From Planctomycetota bacterium (GTDB taxonomy: Bacteria > Planctomycetota > UBA1135 > GCA-002686595): a stretch of 50,517 nucleotides of DNA. Under the pieces are notes generated by a model that ran no database searches, was not told where the DNA came from, and worked only from the letters and a program-made list of their open reading frames with translations. Where the stretch lies: positions 1 through 50,517 of the forward strand of contig JAQWJQ010000131.1 of NCBI GenBank assembly GCA_029248265.1, in the 5' to 3' direction. A program made the translations under genes and the position numbers. Each line of letters begins with the position of its first letter. The first letter of the stretch is position 1. This document shows positions 1 to 4,507 of the stretch, piece after piece.

Positions 1-460
1 CGAGGGTGGCCACAATGGCCGCCTCCAGTTCGGGAGACGGTCTCCAGTCCTCGTCGACGCGCGGGTAGAGGACCTGTCCACCCTCGGCGAACTCCTCCTG
101 GAGGAGCGACATCCTCTGGACGAGGCGGAACCCCTCCTCGAAAGACACGCTCCCCGCGAGGCACAGCGCGATGTACCAACCCAGTGAGTTCCCCCCCACT
201 GCGACGACCTCGTGCTCCTGGCTGGCGGCCGTGGCGTCGATCATGGCCTTGACCAGGATCAGCGGCGACACGTGCGCGGGTCGAAGGTGCCGAGCGGGCT
301 CGAAGCGCTCCGCTCCATCGAGGGACAGGAGGGGCTCCAGCCCAAGGTCTCCTCGACACTGCTCCGCGATCCGTACGAACTCGTGGTCCGGATCCAGGGA
401 TCCGAGGGAGGCCTCCGTGTACGACCCGCGCCCGGGGCAGAGGATGACAGCGCGGCTCAC
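1..460 (-). CDS. ACP S-acyltransferase-like protein (FabD/AT fold), 3' end beyond window
   Basis: The 153 visible N-terminal residues look like the malonyl-CoA:ACP transacylase fold. There is an early glycine-rich loop C-P-G-R-G-S-Y (residues 8-14) and a nucleophile elbow G-G-N-S-L-G-W at 89-95, with Ser92 as predicted nucleophile; the usual form is G-H-S-L-G. The GTG start at 460 overlaps the stop of the upstream E1 fusion gene by 4 bases (GTGA), so the two are almost certainly co-translated. An acyltransferase coupled to a 2-oxoacid dehydrogenase suggests use of an acyl-CoA product in fatty-acid or polyketide-like synthesis, but that is inference. The catalytic His and the C-terminal half lie off the left edge, so substrate class cannot be judged. 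Confidence 0.75.
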   Translation of the reverse strand, partial: MSRAVILCPGRGSYTEASLGSLDPDHEFVRIAEQCRGDLGLEPLLSLDGAERFEPARHLRPAHVSPLILVKAMIDATAASQEHEVVAVGGNSLGWYIALCLAGSVSFEEGFRLVQRMSLLQEEFAEGGQVLYPRVDEDWRPSPELEAAIVATL

Positions 461-2697
461 GACACCACCTCCTTCGCGCCCGTGATGATGTCATCCTCGG
501 ACAAGAGGACGAGGTCCGCAGCGGGGCCGAGGGGGATGTAAGTGTCCGCGCTGCGAACGGTGCGCATCCGGCCGACGTAGCCGCGCTCGACGAGGCCGCT
601 GATGACCGAATCGGCGATACCAGCACCGGTCGCCCGACACTCGTCGGCCACCAACACGGCGCCGCATTCCTCGGCGTGGGTCAGGATCTCATCCATCGGC
701 AAGGGGTTGAGCCAACGCACATCCATGATCCTCGCCTTGATGCCCTGGGCCTCGAGCTGGCGCGCCGCTCGCAGCGCCAGCCTGAAGCCGTTGGCGTACG
801 TCACGATGAGCACGTCTCCGTTCTGCGGGTGAGCGATTCCAACATCACCGGGGAGCAAGGCCGAGTCAGGAGACCCGTCCGGTACCGGGTAGTCGCTCAG
901 CCACAAGCCGTCACCTTCCTCGTAGAGGTCCCGCATGTGGTAGAGCGCGATGGGCTCGAGGAAGACGACGACCCGGCCGGACTCCTGCGCCATGGCGAGC
1001 GACCCTCGCAGCATCCGCGCGGCGTCGGCCCCGTTGGACGGGCAGGCGATGGTGAGCCCAGGGATCTCTCGCAGGGCGCCGATGGAGTTGTCGTTGTGGA
1101 AGTGCCCGCCGAAGCCGCGCTGATAGGCCAGCCCAGCGATTCGGACGACCATCGGGTTCGCGAACTGCTTGTCGCTGAAGAACTGCAGGGAGCACGCCTC
1201 CCCGCGGATCTGATCGATGGCGTTGTGCAGATAGGCGAGGTAGGGGATCTCAGGCACGGGGAGCAGCCCCACCAACGACGCGCCCTGGGCGACCCCGAGG
1301 ATCGTCGTCTCATCAAGGAGCGTATCGAAGCAGCGCGACCGGCCGAATTGCGCCTGGAGGTTCTGGGTGATGCCGTACACCCCGCCCTTTCGACCGACGT
1401 CCTCGCCGAAGCAAATCATCCCCTGACGCCGGATCATCTCATCGTGCAGGGCATCGTTGATTCGAGCCCCAAGGGTCCGTCGGGTCGGGGCCTTCGCCTT
1501 CTCTGGGAGCCTCGCTCCGAAGATCGCGGCGCGCTCCTCCTCTGGGATCGCTGCGGTGGCCGCCTCCCTCCAGAGCACGGGGTCCTCGGGCGCGAGGGGC
1601 TCGACGACCTCGGCGGCGCTGGTGAGTCGGGGACGCTGGCGCGCCTCTTCTGAGCCGGCGCTGACGCGGGCTCGCGTCGTCCGAACAATCTCGCGCAGCT
1701 GCTCAGGGGTCGCCGCGCCGCACTCCACCAACCGACGGGCGTTGGTGAGCACAGGGTCACGGGCCTCGGCCTCCTCGATCTCGGCCTGTGACATGTAGGC
1801 GGACTGGACGTCGCTCCCCGCGTGGCCCCAGAGGCGGTGGCAGCGCAGGCGCAGGAACGTCGGCTGCCGGGTGGTTCGACAGGTCTGAATGGCCAGCGAG
1901 ACGGTGTCCCACATTTCCTCCAGCTCGCCCGACGCCTCGAAGTAGCGGAGGTGCTCCAGCCTCGAGAAGAAGTCTCGGATCCAACGGCGGGGCGTCTCGA
2001 CGCTGATTCCGCGCTGGTTGTCCTCGCAAACGAAGAGGACCGGAGTGGGGTTCATCCGCCGCCAGGCGTAGCGCGCAGAGTTGATGCCCGACAGCGCGGT
2101 GGCGTGGTTCACGCTCGCGTCGCCAAAGGTGCAACAGGTGATCGCGTCCTCGGGGAGCCCCGTCTCGATGCCGAGCTTGGCGGCGCGCCGGAGCGAGTAG
2201 GCCGCGCCCACTGCCTTCGGGATGTGGCTCGCGATCGTGCTCGTTTGGGGCGGGACCCAGGTCTCCTTCGAGCCCCATACCTTGTGCCGGCCCGATGACA
2301 CGGGGTCGTCCTTGGCGGCGCAGAAGCTGAGCAGGGTGTCGAAGAGCGGGGTGCCGTCGTCGACCTGCCGAAGACGCGAGGCCATGAAGGCGCCGGAGCG
2401 GTAGTGGAGGAACGTCGGATCGCTCGTGCGCAGCTGGGCGCCGACGATGGCGTTCTGTTCGTGCCCGGCGCTGCTGATGGTGTAGAAGCCCTCCCCATCA
2501 CGCTTGAGCTCGCGGGCCGCGACGTCGAGGCAACGGGAGAGGACCTGATCCTCCCAGAGCTGGACCGCGACGCGCGCGGTGAGCGTCGTCCCGACCCGGA
2601 GGGGTTCGTTCGGGTCGAGTCGCCTCGGGGCAGCCTCTGCAGATTCCAGGAAGGCGTCTAGATTCGCCTCCACCACTGCGACGCGGTTGGTGCTCAT
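457..2697 (-). CDS. Fused 2-oxoacid dehydrogenase E1 alpha-beta subunit (thiamine diphosphate dependent)
   Basis: This 746-residue protein joins both halves of a heterotetrameric E1. Residues about 40-330 are the alpha half, with the ThDP/Mg motif G-D-A-S-x-N at 192-197 and Asn227 further on. Residues about 400-740 are the beta half, with F-G-E-D-V-G-R-K-G-G-V-Y and the Q-I-R-G-E-A segment of transketolase-like pyrimidine domains, then a transketolase C-terminal domain. Family members decarboxylate pyruvate or branched-chain 2-oxoacids and pass the acyl group to lipoyl-E2. I cannot name the substrate; the overall look is nearer the branched-chain/acetoin type than homodimeric AceE. No E2 or E3 gene is in the window. 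A purine-rich ribosome site (AGGAG) precedes the ATG, and the acyltransferase gene follows with a 4-base overlap. Confidence 0.88.
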   Translation of the reverse strand: MSTNRVAVVEANLDAFLESAEAAPRRLDPNEPLRVGTTLTARVAVQLWEDQVLSRCLDVAARELKRDGEGFYTISSAGHEQNAIVGAQLRTSDPTFLHYRSGAFMASRLRQVDDGTPLFDTLLSFCAAKDDPVSSGRHKVWGSKETWVPPQTSTIASHIPKAVGAAYSLRRAAKLGIETGLPEDAITCCTFGDASVNHATALSGINSARYAWRRMNPTPVLFVCEDNQRGISVETPRRWIRDFFSRLEHLRYFEASGELEEMWDTVSLAIQTCRTTRQPTFLRLRCHRLWGHAGSDVQSAYMSQAEIEEAEARDPVLTNARRLVECGAATPEQLREIVRTTRARVSAGSEEARQRPRLTSAAEVVEPLAPEDPVLWREAATAAIPEEERAAIFGARLPEKAKAPTRRTLGARINDALHDEMIRRQGMICFGEDVGRKGGVYGITQNLQAQFGRSRCFDTLLDETTILGVAQGASLVGLLPVPEIPYLAYLHNAIDQIRGEACSLQFFSDKQFANPMVVRIAGLAYQRGFGGHFHNDNSIGALREIPGLTIACPSNGADAARMLRGSLAMAQESGRVVVFLEPIALYHMRDLYEEGDGLWLSDYPVPDGSPDSALLPGDVGIAHPQNGDVLIVTYANGFRLALRAARQLEAQGIKARIMDVRWLNPLPMDEILTHAEECGAVLVADECRATGAGIADSVISGLVERGYVGRMRTVRSADTYIPLGPAADLVLLSEDDIITGAKEVVS

Positions 2698-2737
2698 TGA
2701 AGCTTCTCCTGCGGCCTGGGACGAACCATGGGGCCGG

Positions 2738-2743
2738 AGCGTA
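2738..2743 (-). promoter_or_regulatory. Candidate -10 element for the E1 fusion gene
   Basis: TACGCT on the minus strand lies 40 bases before the ATG at 2697 and fits the TANNNT pattern seen ahead of many genes here. The leader would be about 33 bases and carries a Shine-Dalgarno-like AGGAG. No convincing -35 is visible. Confidence 0.35.
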
Positions 2744-2818
2744 GCGATGCAAAGAGGTCAGCGGGGGAGTCAGAGGCGAGAGCCTTGACCCGTCGCGCAT
2801 CGATGCAGCGGGGCTTGG

Positions 2819-2935
2819 TCAGCCGGACGAGCAGGTCCCGCGCCGCGGGCACCGCTTGCACATCTTGCGCAGGGGCTTGTCGCAGCACTTCTTCTTCAGC
2901 GCGCCCTTCGGGCCACTCTTCTTCTTCTTTCCCAC
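2819..2935 (-). CDS. 38-residue lysine- and cysteine-rich small protein
   Basis: A short minus-strand reading frame with a GTG start at 2935 and TGA at 2819-2821 encodes a very basic peptide: a tetralysine near the N-terminus, a second lysine cluster, then C-C-x7-C-x2-C (Cys17, Cys18, Cys26, Cys29) followed by C-P-R-R and a final Cys35. Upstream in this frame there is no other start codon before a TAG stop, so the GTG is the only candidate start. The Lys-run plus CC and C-K-R-C-P arrangement resembles a family of tiny bacterial Lys/Cys-rich proteins that I have seen in planctomycete and other genomes, of unknown role. The paired cysteines could bind zinc and the lysines could bind nucleic acid. 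Longer frames over the same bases on both strands look like shadows. Confidence 0.55.
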   Translation of the reverse strand: MGKKKKSGPKGALKKKCCDKPLRKMCKRCPRRGTCSSG

Positions 2936-3084
2936 CGGATCGTGCCGCCCATGGGTCCGCGGCCTGCGTCGTGGTACGCAGGGCGGCGCGGAGCGGGCGC
3001 CTCGCCGGGAACCCTACGCGATTGAGACTCGTTCTCAGGGCATGGGCCGCCATTTTCTCGACTGAAAGGCCGCCAGGGGCCCCG

Positions 3085-3597
3085 CTACCACTCGCCAGCG
3101 TAGACGGCGGTGAAGCCCGGCGCGTCACGTTGGGAGAGGTCGAAGCTCCGTCGGGCGATCATCTTGGTCATGATCGCGTCGTAGCTCGCCCAGGAGACCA
3201 GCAGGTCGCCGGCGCGGACCGGCCCGAGCTTGGGCTCCTCGTGGGTGGCGGTCCAGTTGGCGGCACCGAGGCCCTTGAGCCACTGGACGCTCTTCAGGCG
3301 CTCTCGCTGGAACTTCTCCGCCTCACGGTCGAGCTTGCGCTCGTTGTAATTGAGCTCGTCGATCCCGTCATCGGCCTCCACCCGCGGCCAGGGCTTCTCC
3401 GGGTCACGCAGGGTCAGCTCGAGGCGCGGGCGGAAGTCGAGGACTTCTCGGTCGCACAGGTTGCCCACGATTTCGAGCACCGACATACCGCCCTCAGCGG
3501 GGCGCCAGCGCGCCTGGTCGGAGGGAAGACTCTGAACGAGTTGTCGTAGCTGGTAGGCAAATGCCTCCAGACGGCCGATGAGAAGGTCGGGATTCAT
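3085..3597 (-). CDS. DinB-fold protein lacking the usual metal ligands
   Basis: The 170-residue product has the length and helix pattern of the DinB/YfiT four-helix bundle: an N-terminal helix around L-I-G-R-L-E-A-F, a proline-containing turn with W-R-P-A-E-G-G-M-S-V-L-E-I-V, and a late helix before the end. In most members three histidines (one after the second helix, two in the last helix) bind a metal. Here the corresponding places read G-N-L-C-D-R-E and S-W-A-S-Y-D-A-I-M, with no histidines, so the protein is probably not a metal-dependent transferase. The ATG at 3597 was chosen over an ATG 23 codons upstream because the extra N-terminal stretch is not family-like. Function unknown; damage-response links are only by family name. 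Confidence 0.7.
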   Translation of the reverse strand: MNPDLLIGRLEAFAYQLRQLVQSLPSDQARWRPAEGGMSVLEIVGNLCDREVLDFRPRLELTLRDPEKPWPRVEADDGIDELNYNERKLDREAEKFQRERLKSVQWLKGLGAANWTATHEEPKLGPVRAGDLLVSWASYDAIMTKMIARRSFDLSQRDAPGFTAVYAGEW

Positions 3598-3712
3598 GTG
3601 ATTGGGGGGCCGATGCAGGTCTTGGAGGGGGTATCGCACCCAACTCGTGAGGCGTCGGATCTTCAAGGATCCTGCCAGTCCACGGGGCCGCCAATGCGCC
3701 CTGCTAGGCCAC

Positions 3713-3754: not shown

Positions 3755-4507
3755 ATGCTCCGCAACCTCGTACTCGGCTCCTTCGCCCTTCTCGCAGCCT
3801 TCTGGAGCTACGTCTTCTACGACAGTTCGACCGAGGCGAACCGGGCCCTGCGGGTTCGCGACGACCAGATCGCCCAACTCGAGATGGACAACGGGCAGAA
3901 GGCCGGACGTATTGACGCGCTCGATTTGCAGGTGCAGTCCCTCGAGGCCAAGGTCTCCCAGCTCGAGCTCGCCCGACAGCTGCTCCAGCTGGATCACCGA
4001 ATCGCCCGCATCGAGGTGCTCCGCCAGGGGCCTGGCAAGGGCGGCTCAGGCGAGGTGCAAACCGAGGTCCTCTTCACCGAGCTCGACCCCGAGGGCGAGC
4101 CGATCGGGCCCGGCAAGGAGATCACGCTTCCTGGGACGAGGATCTACGTGGAGGGCATCGTCGTGAAGTTCGGCGACTCCTATGTGGAGCAAGGGGACCC
4201 CCTCCGAGGAACGTCCATCTGCCTCCTCCAGCGCATGTTCTCCGAGGAGCTCGCTCCTGAGGAGGGCGTCGCCCTGGACTCGATCAACCAGCACCCCCTC
4301 CCCTTCACCGGTGACGACCTGCCAGACCCTCTCTACAGAGACCTCTTCGAGCGCGTCTGGCACTACGCCAACGACCCGGACGCGGCCGAGCGGATCGGCG
4401 TGAGGGCGATCCAGGCGGAAGCACCCTCGGTGGAGGCGCGTGCAGGGCAGACGTATCGACTCGAGCTACGCCAATCCGGAGGCATCACCCTCCAAGCCGA
4501 GCGGTAG
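3755..4507 (+). CDS. Membrane-anchored coiled-coil protein of unknown function
   Basis: The 250-residue product begins with one hydrophobic segment (about residues 3-21), which looks like an uncleaved signal anchor. A heptad-rich stretch at about 30-95 (I-A-Q-L-E, L-Q-V-Q-S-L-E-A-K-V-S-Q-L-E) predicts a coiled coil. The C-terminal two thirds form a compact domain with the segments T-E-V-L-F-T-E-L-D-P-E-G and L-P-G-T-R-I-Y-V-E, then V-W-H-Y-A-N-D-P near 210. Topology predicts the main domain outside the cytoplasm. I do not recognise the family. The ATG at 3755 was chosen because it places the hydrophobic anchor at the N-terminus; upstream codons in frame look non-coding. It is transcribed alone, with a 370-base gap before the next gene, which is convergent. 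Confidence 0.72.
   Translation: MLRNLVLGSFALLAAFWSYVFYDSSTEANRALRVRDDQIAQLEMDNGQKAGRIDALDLQVQSLEAKVSQLELARQLLQLDHRIARIEVLRQGPGKGGSGEVQTEVLFTELDPEGEPIGPGKEITLPGTRIYVEGIVVKFGDSYVEQGDPLRGTSICLLQRMFSEELAPEEGVALDSINQHPLPFTGDDLPDPLYRDLFERVWHYANDPDAAERIGVRAIQAEAPSVEARAGQTYRLELRQSGGITLQAER

Follow-up and report, generated by a model that had tools for sequence, protein, structure and literature searches.

A four-cysteine micro-protein of Planctomycetota with probable induction by iron starvation

The locus

The micro-protein gene is a short reading frame on the minus strand of the window (the whole stretch of 50,517 nucleotides that was analysed), where it lies between the genes of a DinB_2 protein and a fused dehydrogenase E1. 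The features of the locus are as follows.

457–2697, minus strand: downstream neighbour, a fused dehydrogenase E1 (E1_dh + Transket_pyr + Transketolase_C), 121 nt past the micro-protein stop and outside the module beyond the genus
2819–2935, minus strand: micro-protein gene, 38 codons plus TGA with GTG start, based on the reading frame, its homologues and the alignment of its start with the ATG of other members
2846–2896, minus strand: conserved core KKKCCDKPLRKMCKRCP, residues 14–30, 17 codons, based on the residues invariant in 19 members and on pN/pS
2936–3021, minus strand: stretch of 86 nt from box to start, comprising core promoter and 5′ leader, whose folding does not go beyond its composition (z −1.0)
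3011–3016, minus strand: candidate −10 hexamer TAGGGT, a weak 3/6 match 16 nt past the −35-like hexamer; TATCAT (5/6) stands there in copy L008
3022–3038, no strand assigned: Fur-box-like inverted repeat TTGAGACTCGTTCTCAG, whose first minus-strand hexamer, CTGAGA, could double as a −35 element
3085–3666, minus strand: upstream neighbour, a DinB_2 protein outside the module

Translation of 2935–2819 from the GTG gives V(M)GKKKKSGPKGALKKKCCDKPLRKMCKRCPRRGTCSSG*, a peptide of 38 aa with 11 lysines, 4 arginines and 5 cysteines, a calculated pI of 10.4 and a charge of about +13. The original prediction had proposed a minus-strand frame of 38 residues from GTG 2935 to TGA 2819 with a CC-x7-C-x2-C pattern and a CKRCP core, bounded upstream by an in-frame stop and possessing a single start. 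The frame and both motifs are present in the translation, and the stop lies 26 codons 5′ with no intervening ATG, GTG or TTG. A single-sequence AlphaFold model of the micro-protein (pLDDT 62.8, pTM 0.23) was uninformative and was set aside.

Within the genus of the window, g1, the order DinB, box, micro-protein and E1 is kept, and in L008 another small gene is called downstream of the micro-protein. Beyond g1 the neighbours are different, often with a convergent gene downstream, so that the micro-protein unit stands alone. In two genomes of the same genus (G005 and G006) DinB directly adjoins E1, and box and peptide are both missing; this joint gain or loss of box and gene is good evidence that they form one functional unit. 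The E1 gene, on the same strand as the micro-protein, encodes a 746-aa fusion of the E1 alpha and E1 beta parts of a 2-oxo acid dehydrogenase. Read-through from the micro-protein gene could place the fused E1 under the iron control discussed below.

A family of short basic proteins with an invariant four-cysteine core

Homologues were sought in widening sets of genomes. Among 61 genomes of relatives, 19 matched at E ≤ 0.1, and inspection of the matches showed the core in 13, counting that of the window; a profile search of the 81 genomes of the family matched 19 and found the core in 18, G083 being the one without. A search of 154 genomes of the class returned the same 18 together with three weak core-less matches, and a draw of 392 genomes across the phylum gave 16 matches, namely 12 of the short form with core, two of a longer form and two without core. 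Weak matches in G019, G020, G021, G027, G049, G056, G083, G052, G477, G219 and G425 were dropped, as were the second, weaker matches of G000, G002, G007, G008 and G009; the core was absent wherever these were read. The short members number 23 in total and come from 15 genera in three families (f1 with 18 genomes, f35 with two and f63 with three).

The members are 25–39 aa long, with calculated charges of about +10 to +13, and share the core pattern K-x2-CC-x-KP-x4-C-x2-CP. The shortest have 25 aa, for example MAKKKRKKNCCDKPPKKRCKRCPLG (L047). Across all 19 aligned members M1, K14, C17, C18, K20, P21, C26, C29 and P30 are invariant, M1 having been entered by hand for GTG and CTG codons. The predicted cysteine pattern therefore holds for its four core residues, which are invariant in the family, but the last cysteine of the window copy, C35, varies. 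At the start position the 22 aligned copies have ATG in 14 cases, GTG in five (the window, L005, L043, L048 and L052) and CTG in three (L004, L006 and L007). The GTG proposed as start is thus found in the window and in L005, but not in the other three of the five closest copies, which have CTG; given the GTG of the window and the CTG of its three sisters, translation there may be weak.

The expectation of a larger family was well founded, and no existing annotation covers it: none of the 19 members has a Pfam family at E ≤ 1, and their sole NCBIfam match, at E 0.81, was taken as chance and is not an Fbp. No relative was found among PDB sequences at E ≤ 10, tblastn of the micro-protein against plasmids gave no match, and the core pattern had no exact match in viral contigs. 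The small-protein catalogues GMSC and sORFdb could hold family sequences unannotated. The family points to a small effector without a profile in the annotation libraries searched.

The occurrence of the family is patchy, with the gene in 18 of the 81 family genomes and missing from two of nine genomes of the same genus, and therefore the micro-protein is not indispensable under iron starvation. The PLA46 probe is planctomycete-specific, and all four 16S genes examined carry its target without mismatch, with one mismatch to EUB338 and three to PLA886. The host genomes are accordingly taken to be Planctomycetota and, judging from the latter mismatches, would be a deep or unusual lineage.

The longer form is encoded by L049 (G349) and L051 (G372) of family f17, which are basic proteins ending in a CC-x-KP-x4-CK-x-CP module. 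Like the micro-protein they have the cysteine module C-terminal to a basic region, but they possess about 50 additional N-terminal residues, and no box of the TTGAGA type was found upstream. L051 continues in frame into a cupin-like region. Only two of 23 f17 genomes carry this form and both are rated 6–7% contaminated, so the true host of L049 and L051 is doubtful.

Selection acts on the reading frame

Codon-level constraint was measured over the 17 codons of the core in 16 representative copies of 22 (L004–L007, L045 and L052 being left out). The mean pS is 0.398 and the mean pN 0.140, a ratio of 0.35, whereas the same DNA gives ratios of 0.88–2.08 in the five other frames. Variable core sites fall on codon positions 1, 2 and 3 in 8, 7 and 14 cases, and the window and L008 differ over the core by four synonymous and no nonsynonymous changes. 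The five closest copies are 100% identical over 2842–2871, against 78–95% in the adjoining coding DNA; this is conservation without synonymous change, and so it is the wider set that supplies the frame-specific signal.

The two outcomes that would have told against the original prediction, a lack of homologues in related genomes and a core free of protein-level constraint, were thus not encountered. That the frame is a chance one, conserved through something else at the locus, is hardly credible: the non-ATG starts of the five closest copies would suit it, and it is contradicted by homologues in different neighbourhoods, by the frame-specific selection and by the aligned ATG starts. The earlier argument that the frame exceeds chance is strengthened by homologues in other genomes that are alike in length, core and start position. 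By these sequence criteria the ORF is almost certainly a true gene, and it is strongly supported as translated, selected and equipped with its own promoter region.

An inverted repeat upstream of the gene

A good match to TTGAGAATNATTCTCAA, an inverted repeat of the form TTGAGA-N5-TCTCAA, precedes 22 of the 23 copies at 18–86 nt from the start, the distance in the window being 86 nt; the exception, L011, lacks a clear start as well as the box. The original prediction made no mention of this repeat, which offers the best pointer to the function of the peptide. On a scale with a maximum of 16, 20 of the 22 upstream regions score at least 12 and the other two score 11. Of 1168 control windows of 160 nt taken elsewhere in these loci, none scores at least 12 and 11 score 11; the consensus had first been spotted on members of the set that was later scored, and the controls were then run. 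TGAGA-N5-TCTCA occurs in the 50.5-kb window once, at 3023–3037 in front of the micro-protein gene, against 0.01 expected.

Seven whole genomes scanned at up to one mismatch hold 2–9 repeat sites each, one of which precedes the micro-protein gene in five of the seven. The genome of the window, G000, has eight sites and none for the reversed control, which is empty in four of the seven genomes; in G024, G092 and G131 the reversed control gave 2, 6 and 2 matches against 2, 9 and 5 real sites.

A −10-like hexamer matching at no fewer than four of six positions lies 15–19 nt after the first hexamer of the repeat in only six of 22 copies, among them L008, and therefore the overlap of the repeat with a promoter −35 element is a suggestion only. 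Many copies, that of the window included, match a −10 element poorly, and a strict sigma-70 promoter scan of 2650–3120 found none.

Structure in the leader RNA was considered and rejected. The closest copies allow hairpins to be drawn. Relative to mononucleotide shuffles most z-scores fall between −2 and +1, with lower values in L008 (−3.5), L013 (−2.8) and L014 (−2.4). These data bear on the idea that the transcript is mainly a Fur-regulated small RNA to which the peptide is secondary. Fur-controlled small RNAs are the classic agents of iron sparing, and a foldable leader and the lack of synonymous core change in the five closest copies would be in keeping with such a role. Family-wide, however, the leader varies in sequence and in length (18–86 nt) while the peptide is kept, the low pN/pS is restricted to the gene frame and folding stays within composition in most copies, all of which makes a primary RNA function improbable.

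A candidate Fur regulon

Repeat sites other than those of the micro-protein were followed up in 18 regions, where genes were called by a simple codon score and selected products scanned with Pfam. In G102 the repeat precedes feoA-feoB (L083; FeoA at E 5e-18, FeoB_N at E 6e-51), with the box at the edge of feoA, and in G200 it lies about 340 nt from a ferritin-like gene (L085). ZnuA-type substrate-binding proteins with ABC genes follow it in G000 and G200 (L077 and L087); the substrate of such transporters could be Mn, Fe or Zn. Further sites in G000 lie before a flavodoxin/FAD/NAD reductase and before a gene pair encoding an exported protein of no assigned family and an FMN_bind protein, and in G102 before an FMN_bind gene and an ApbE gene. 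A named gene for uptake or storage of iron or another metal occurs in only four of the 18 regions and flavin redox genes occur in four (L075, L078, L082 and L092, the last assigned by its likeness to L078); the products of the remaining ten, part of them Pfam-scanned, include no named iron or flavin gene.

The repeat is read as a Fur box because its copies precede feoAB, ferritin and ZnuA-type metal transporters, FeoAB and ferritin pointing to iron and iron to Fur; it also resembles the Fur boxes of other bacteria. The genome of the window has a single FUR-family gene (PF01475, E 7.7e-31), which from its sequence could also be of another FUR-family type. Control of the micro-protein by Fur appears very likely on this basis, and repression by Fur in the presence of iron only slightly less so. 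To judge from the sequences, then, the micro-protein is probably produced under iron shortage. Only a few phyla have well-mapped Fur regulons, and a literature search found no paper on a planctomycete Fur regulon; the box-linked family predicts one that would comprise feoAB, ferritin, a metal ABC transporter and FMN/flavin redox genes.

Three further observations concern the repeat sites themselves. The gene cluster behind the box in L078, L082 and L092 (G000, G102 and G003) encodes an FMN_bind protein and an exported protein of no assigned family that may belong to the outer membrane; in G102 a pyridine-nucleotide oxidoreductase and ApbE lie close by. The cluster has the appearance of a system for flavin electron transfer or ferric reduction under iron regulation. 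In L081 (G000:C239) a multihaem cytochrome c7/c3-like gene follows the site near 2199 at a distance of about 290 nt. L090 and L089 (G092) have paired boxes 24–39 nt apart, at 4008/4032 and 4083/4122, in front of or close to exported proteins of no assigned family.

Proposed function

The favoured reading, held at a little under even confidence, is of a Fur-repressed iron-starvation micro-protein that acts in the manner of FbpA, FbpB and FbpC and whose four-cysteine core probably binds a metal. In this scheme Fe(II)-Fur on the 17-bp repeat, perhaps over the −35 element, would stop transcription and loss of iron would relieve it, a step that the sequence supports. The CC and CxxC pairs would then hold one metal ion (Zn, or Fe or Fe-S), folding the peptide and leaving a strongly positive surface. 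This surface may bind RNA and aid the shut-down of non-essential functions that use iron, as proposed for FbpA/B/C. Owing to the charge of about +10 to +13 RNA is a likely partner, and action at the RNA level is put forward tentatively, with slightly less assurance than the reading as a whole.

The zinc or nucleic-acid binding that had been thought plausible fits the sequences, since the four invariant cysteines and the Lys/Arg charge would suit either. The invariance of the four cysteines in 19 of 19 aligned members suggests that the metal site weighs more than a plain RNA-binding tail would require. This favours the main rival to the Fbp-like reading, direct handling of iron or zinc, whereby the protein would be a Fur-controlled carrier of iron (or Fe-S, or zinc) or a ferritin-releasing factor, akin to Bfd or a mini-chaperone, its charge docking an acidic partner. 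The proline after the last core cysteine, the KP after the CC pair, the iron type of the promoter box and, in one genome, a ferritin-like gene behind the same box are consistent with it. On the other side there is no match to Fer2_BFD or any other Pfam family, CC-x7-C-x2-C is unlike the CxC...CxxC of Bfd, and 25 residues are very short for a cluster protein, so that such a role seems possible and on the whole unlikely.

Two other roles were considered. A ribosome- or nucleoid-associated zinc-knuckle peptide could tune translation or DNA compaction under iron starvation, and Lys/Arg-rich tails, the calculated charge of +10 to +13 and a possible zinc knuckle are in keeping with it, such tails with a knuckle being found in small ribosomal proteins. 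This is a decidedly less probable role, as models of ribosomal proteins gave no match, presence is patchy and the regulon is of the iron type (FeoAB, ferritin), not the zinc type. The precursor of a secreted peptide with a metal-binding or antimicrobial function would likewise be cationic and cysteine-bearing, with an iron-type promoter box and an accessory distribution; the peptide, however, has no signal-like hydrophobic stretch, beyond the genus there is no conserved neighbour for modification or export, and the core is very invariant, which renders this highly improbable.

If the Fbp-like reading is extended, the family could be a new class of iron-starvation effectors from 25 residues upwards, in which the four-cysteine site senses the iron or zinc state and the cationic tail acts on RNA. 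Gained and lost whole as a unit of box and gene, it would be a planctomycete counterpart of the sparing by RyhB or by FsrA and the Fbp proteins. This extension is speculative and considered rather doubtful.

Comparison with known systems

A Fur-controlled small basic protein is of a kind already known; the present family, with its four-cysteine core and members down to 25 residues, turned up in neither the profile libraries nor the literature searched, and a literature search for the peptide strings and for Fur-regulated small proteins gave nothing relevant. Metallothioneins and small zinc-ribbon proteins are also short and contain cysteine pairs, but the micro-protein has only four conserved cysteines, many Lys and Arg residues and no profile match. 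The bacterioferritin-associated ferredoxin (Bfd), whose cysteines are spaced CxC...CxxC, is likewise small and cysteine-rich, whereas the micro-protein has 25–39 aa, another cysteine spacing and no Fer2_BFD match. PA4570 of Pseudomonas, an iron-linked small protein, was considered as an analogue and dropped, as it has 74 aa with 10 basic residues (PMC4950607). In Caulobacter, a table of one report lists Bfd as induced by iron limitation, and its authors speculated likewise on Fur-repressed small proteins acting with sRNAs (PMC3751524).

The nearest working analogue is FbpA/B/C, and by sequence the micro-protein does not belong to the Fbp family. Pfam holds FbpA and FbpB models, and none of the 19 micro-protein members has a Pfam match, so that no sequence homology is seen. 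In two sources FbpA, FbpB and FbpC of Bacillus subtilis are described as small, basic, Fur-regulated proteins of 54, 48 and 29 aa that are postulated RNA chaperones for the sRNA FsrA (PMC8464778; PMC12871923), their RNA binding being given in the former as still unconfirmed (PMC8464778). Like them the micro-protein is shorter than about 60 aa, basic and located behind a Fur-type box, but it comes from a different phylum and has an invariant four-cysteine core. Should the micro-protein act on RNA, it would point to an origin of small basic iron-sparing proteins separate from that in Bacillus.
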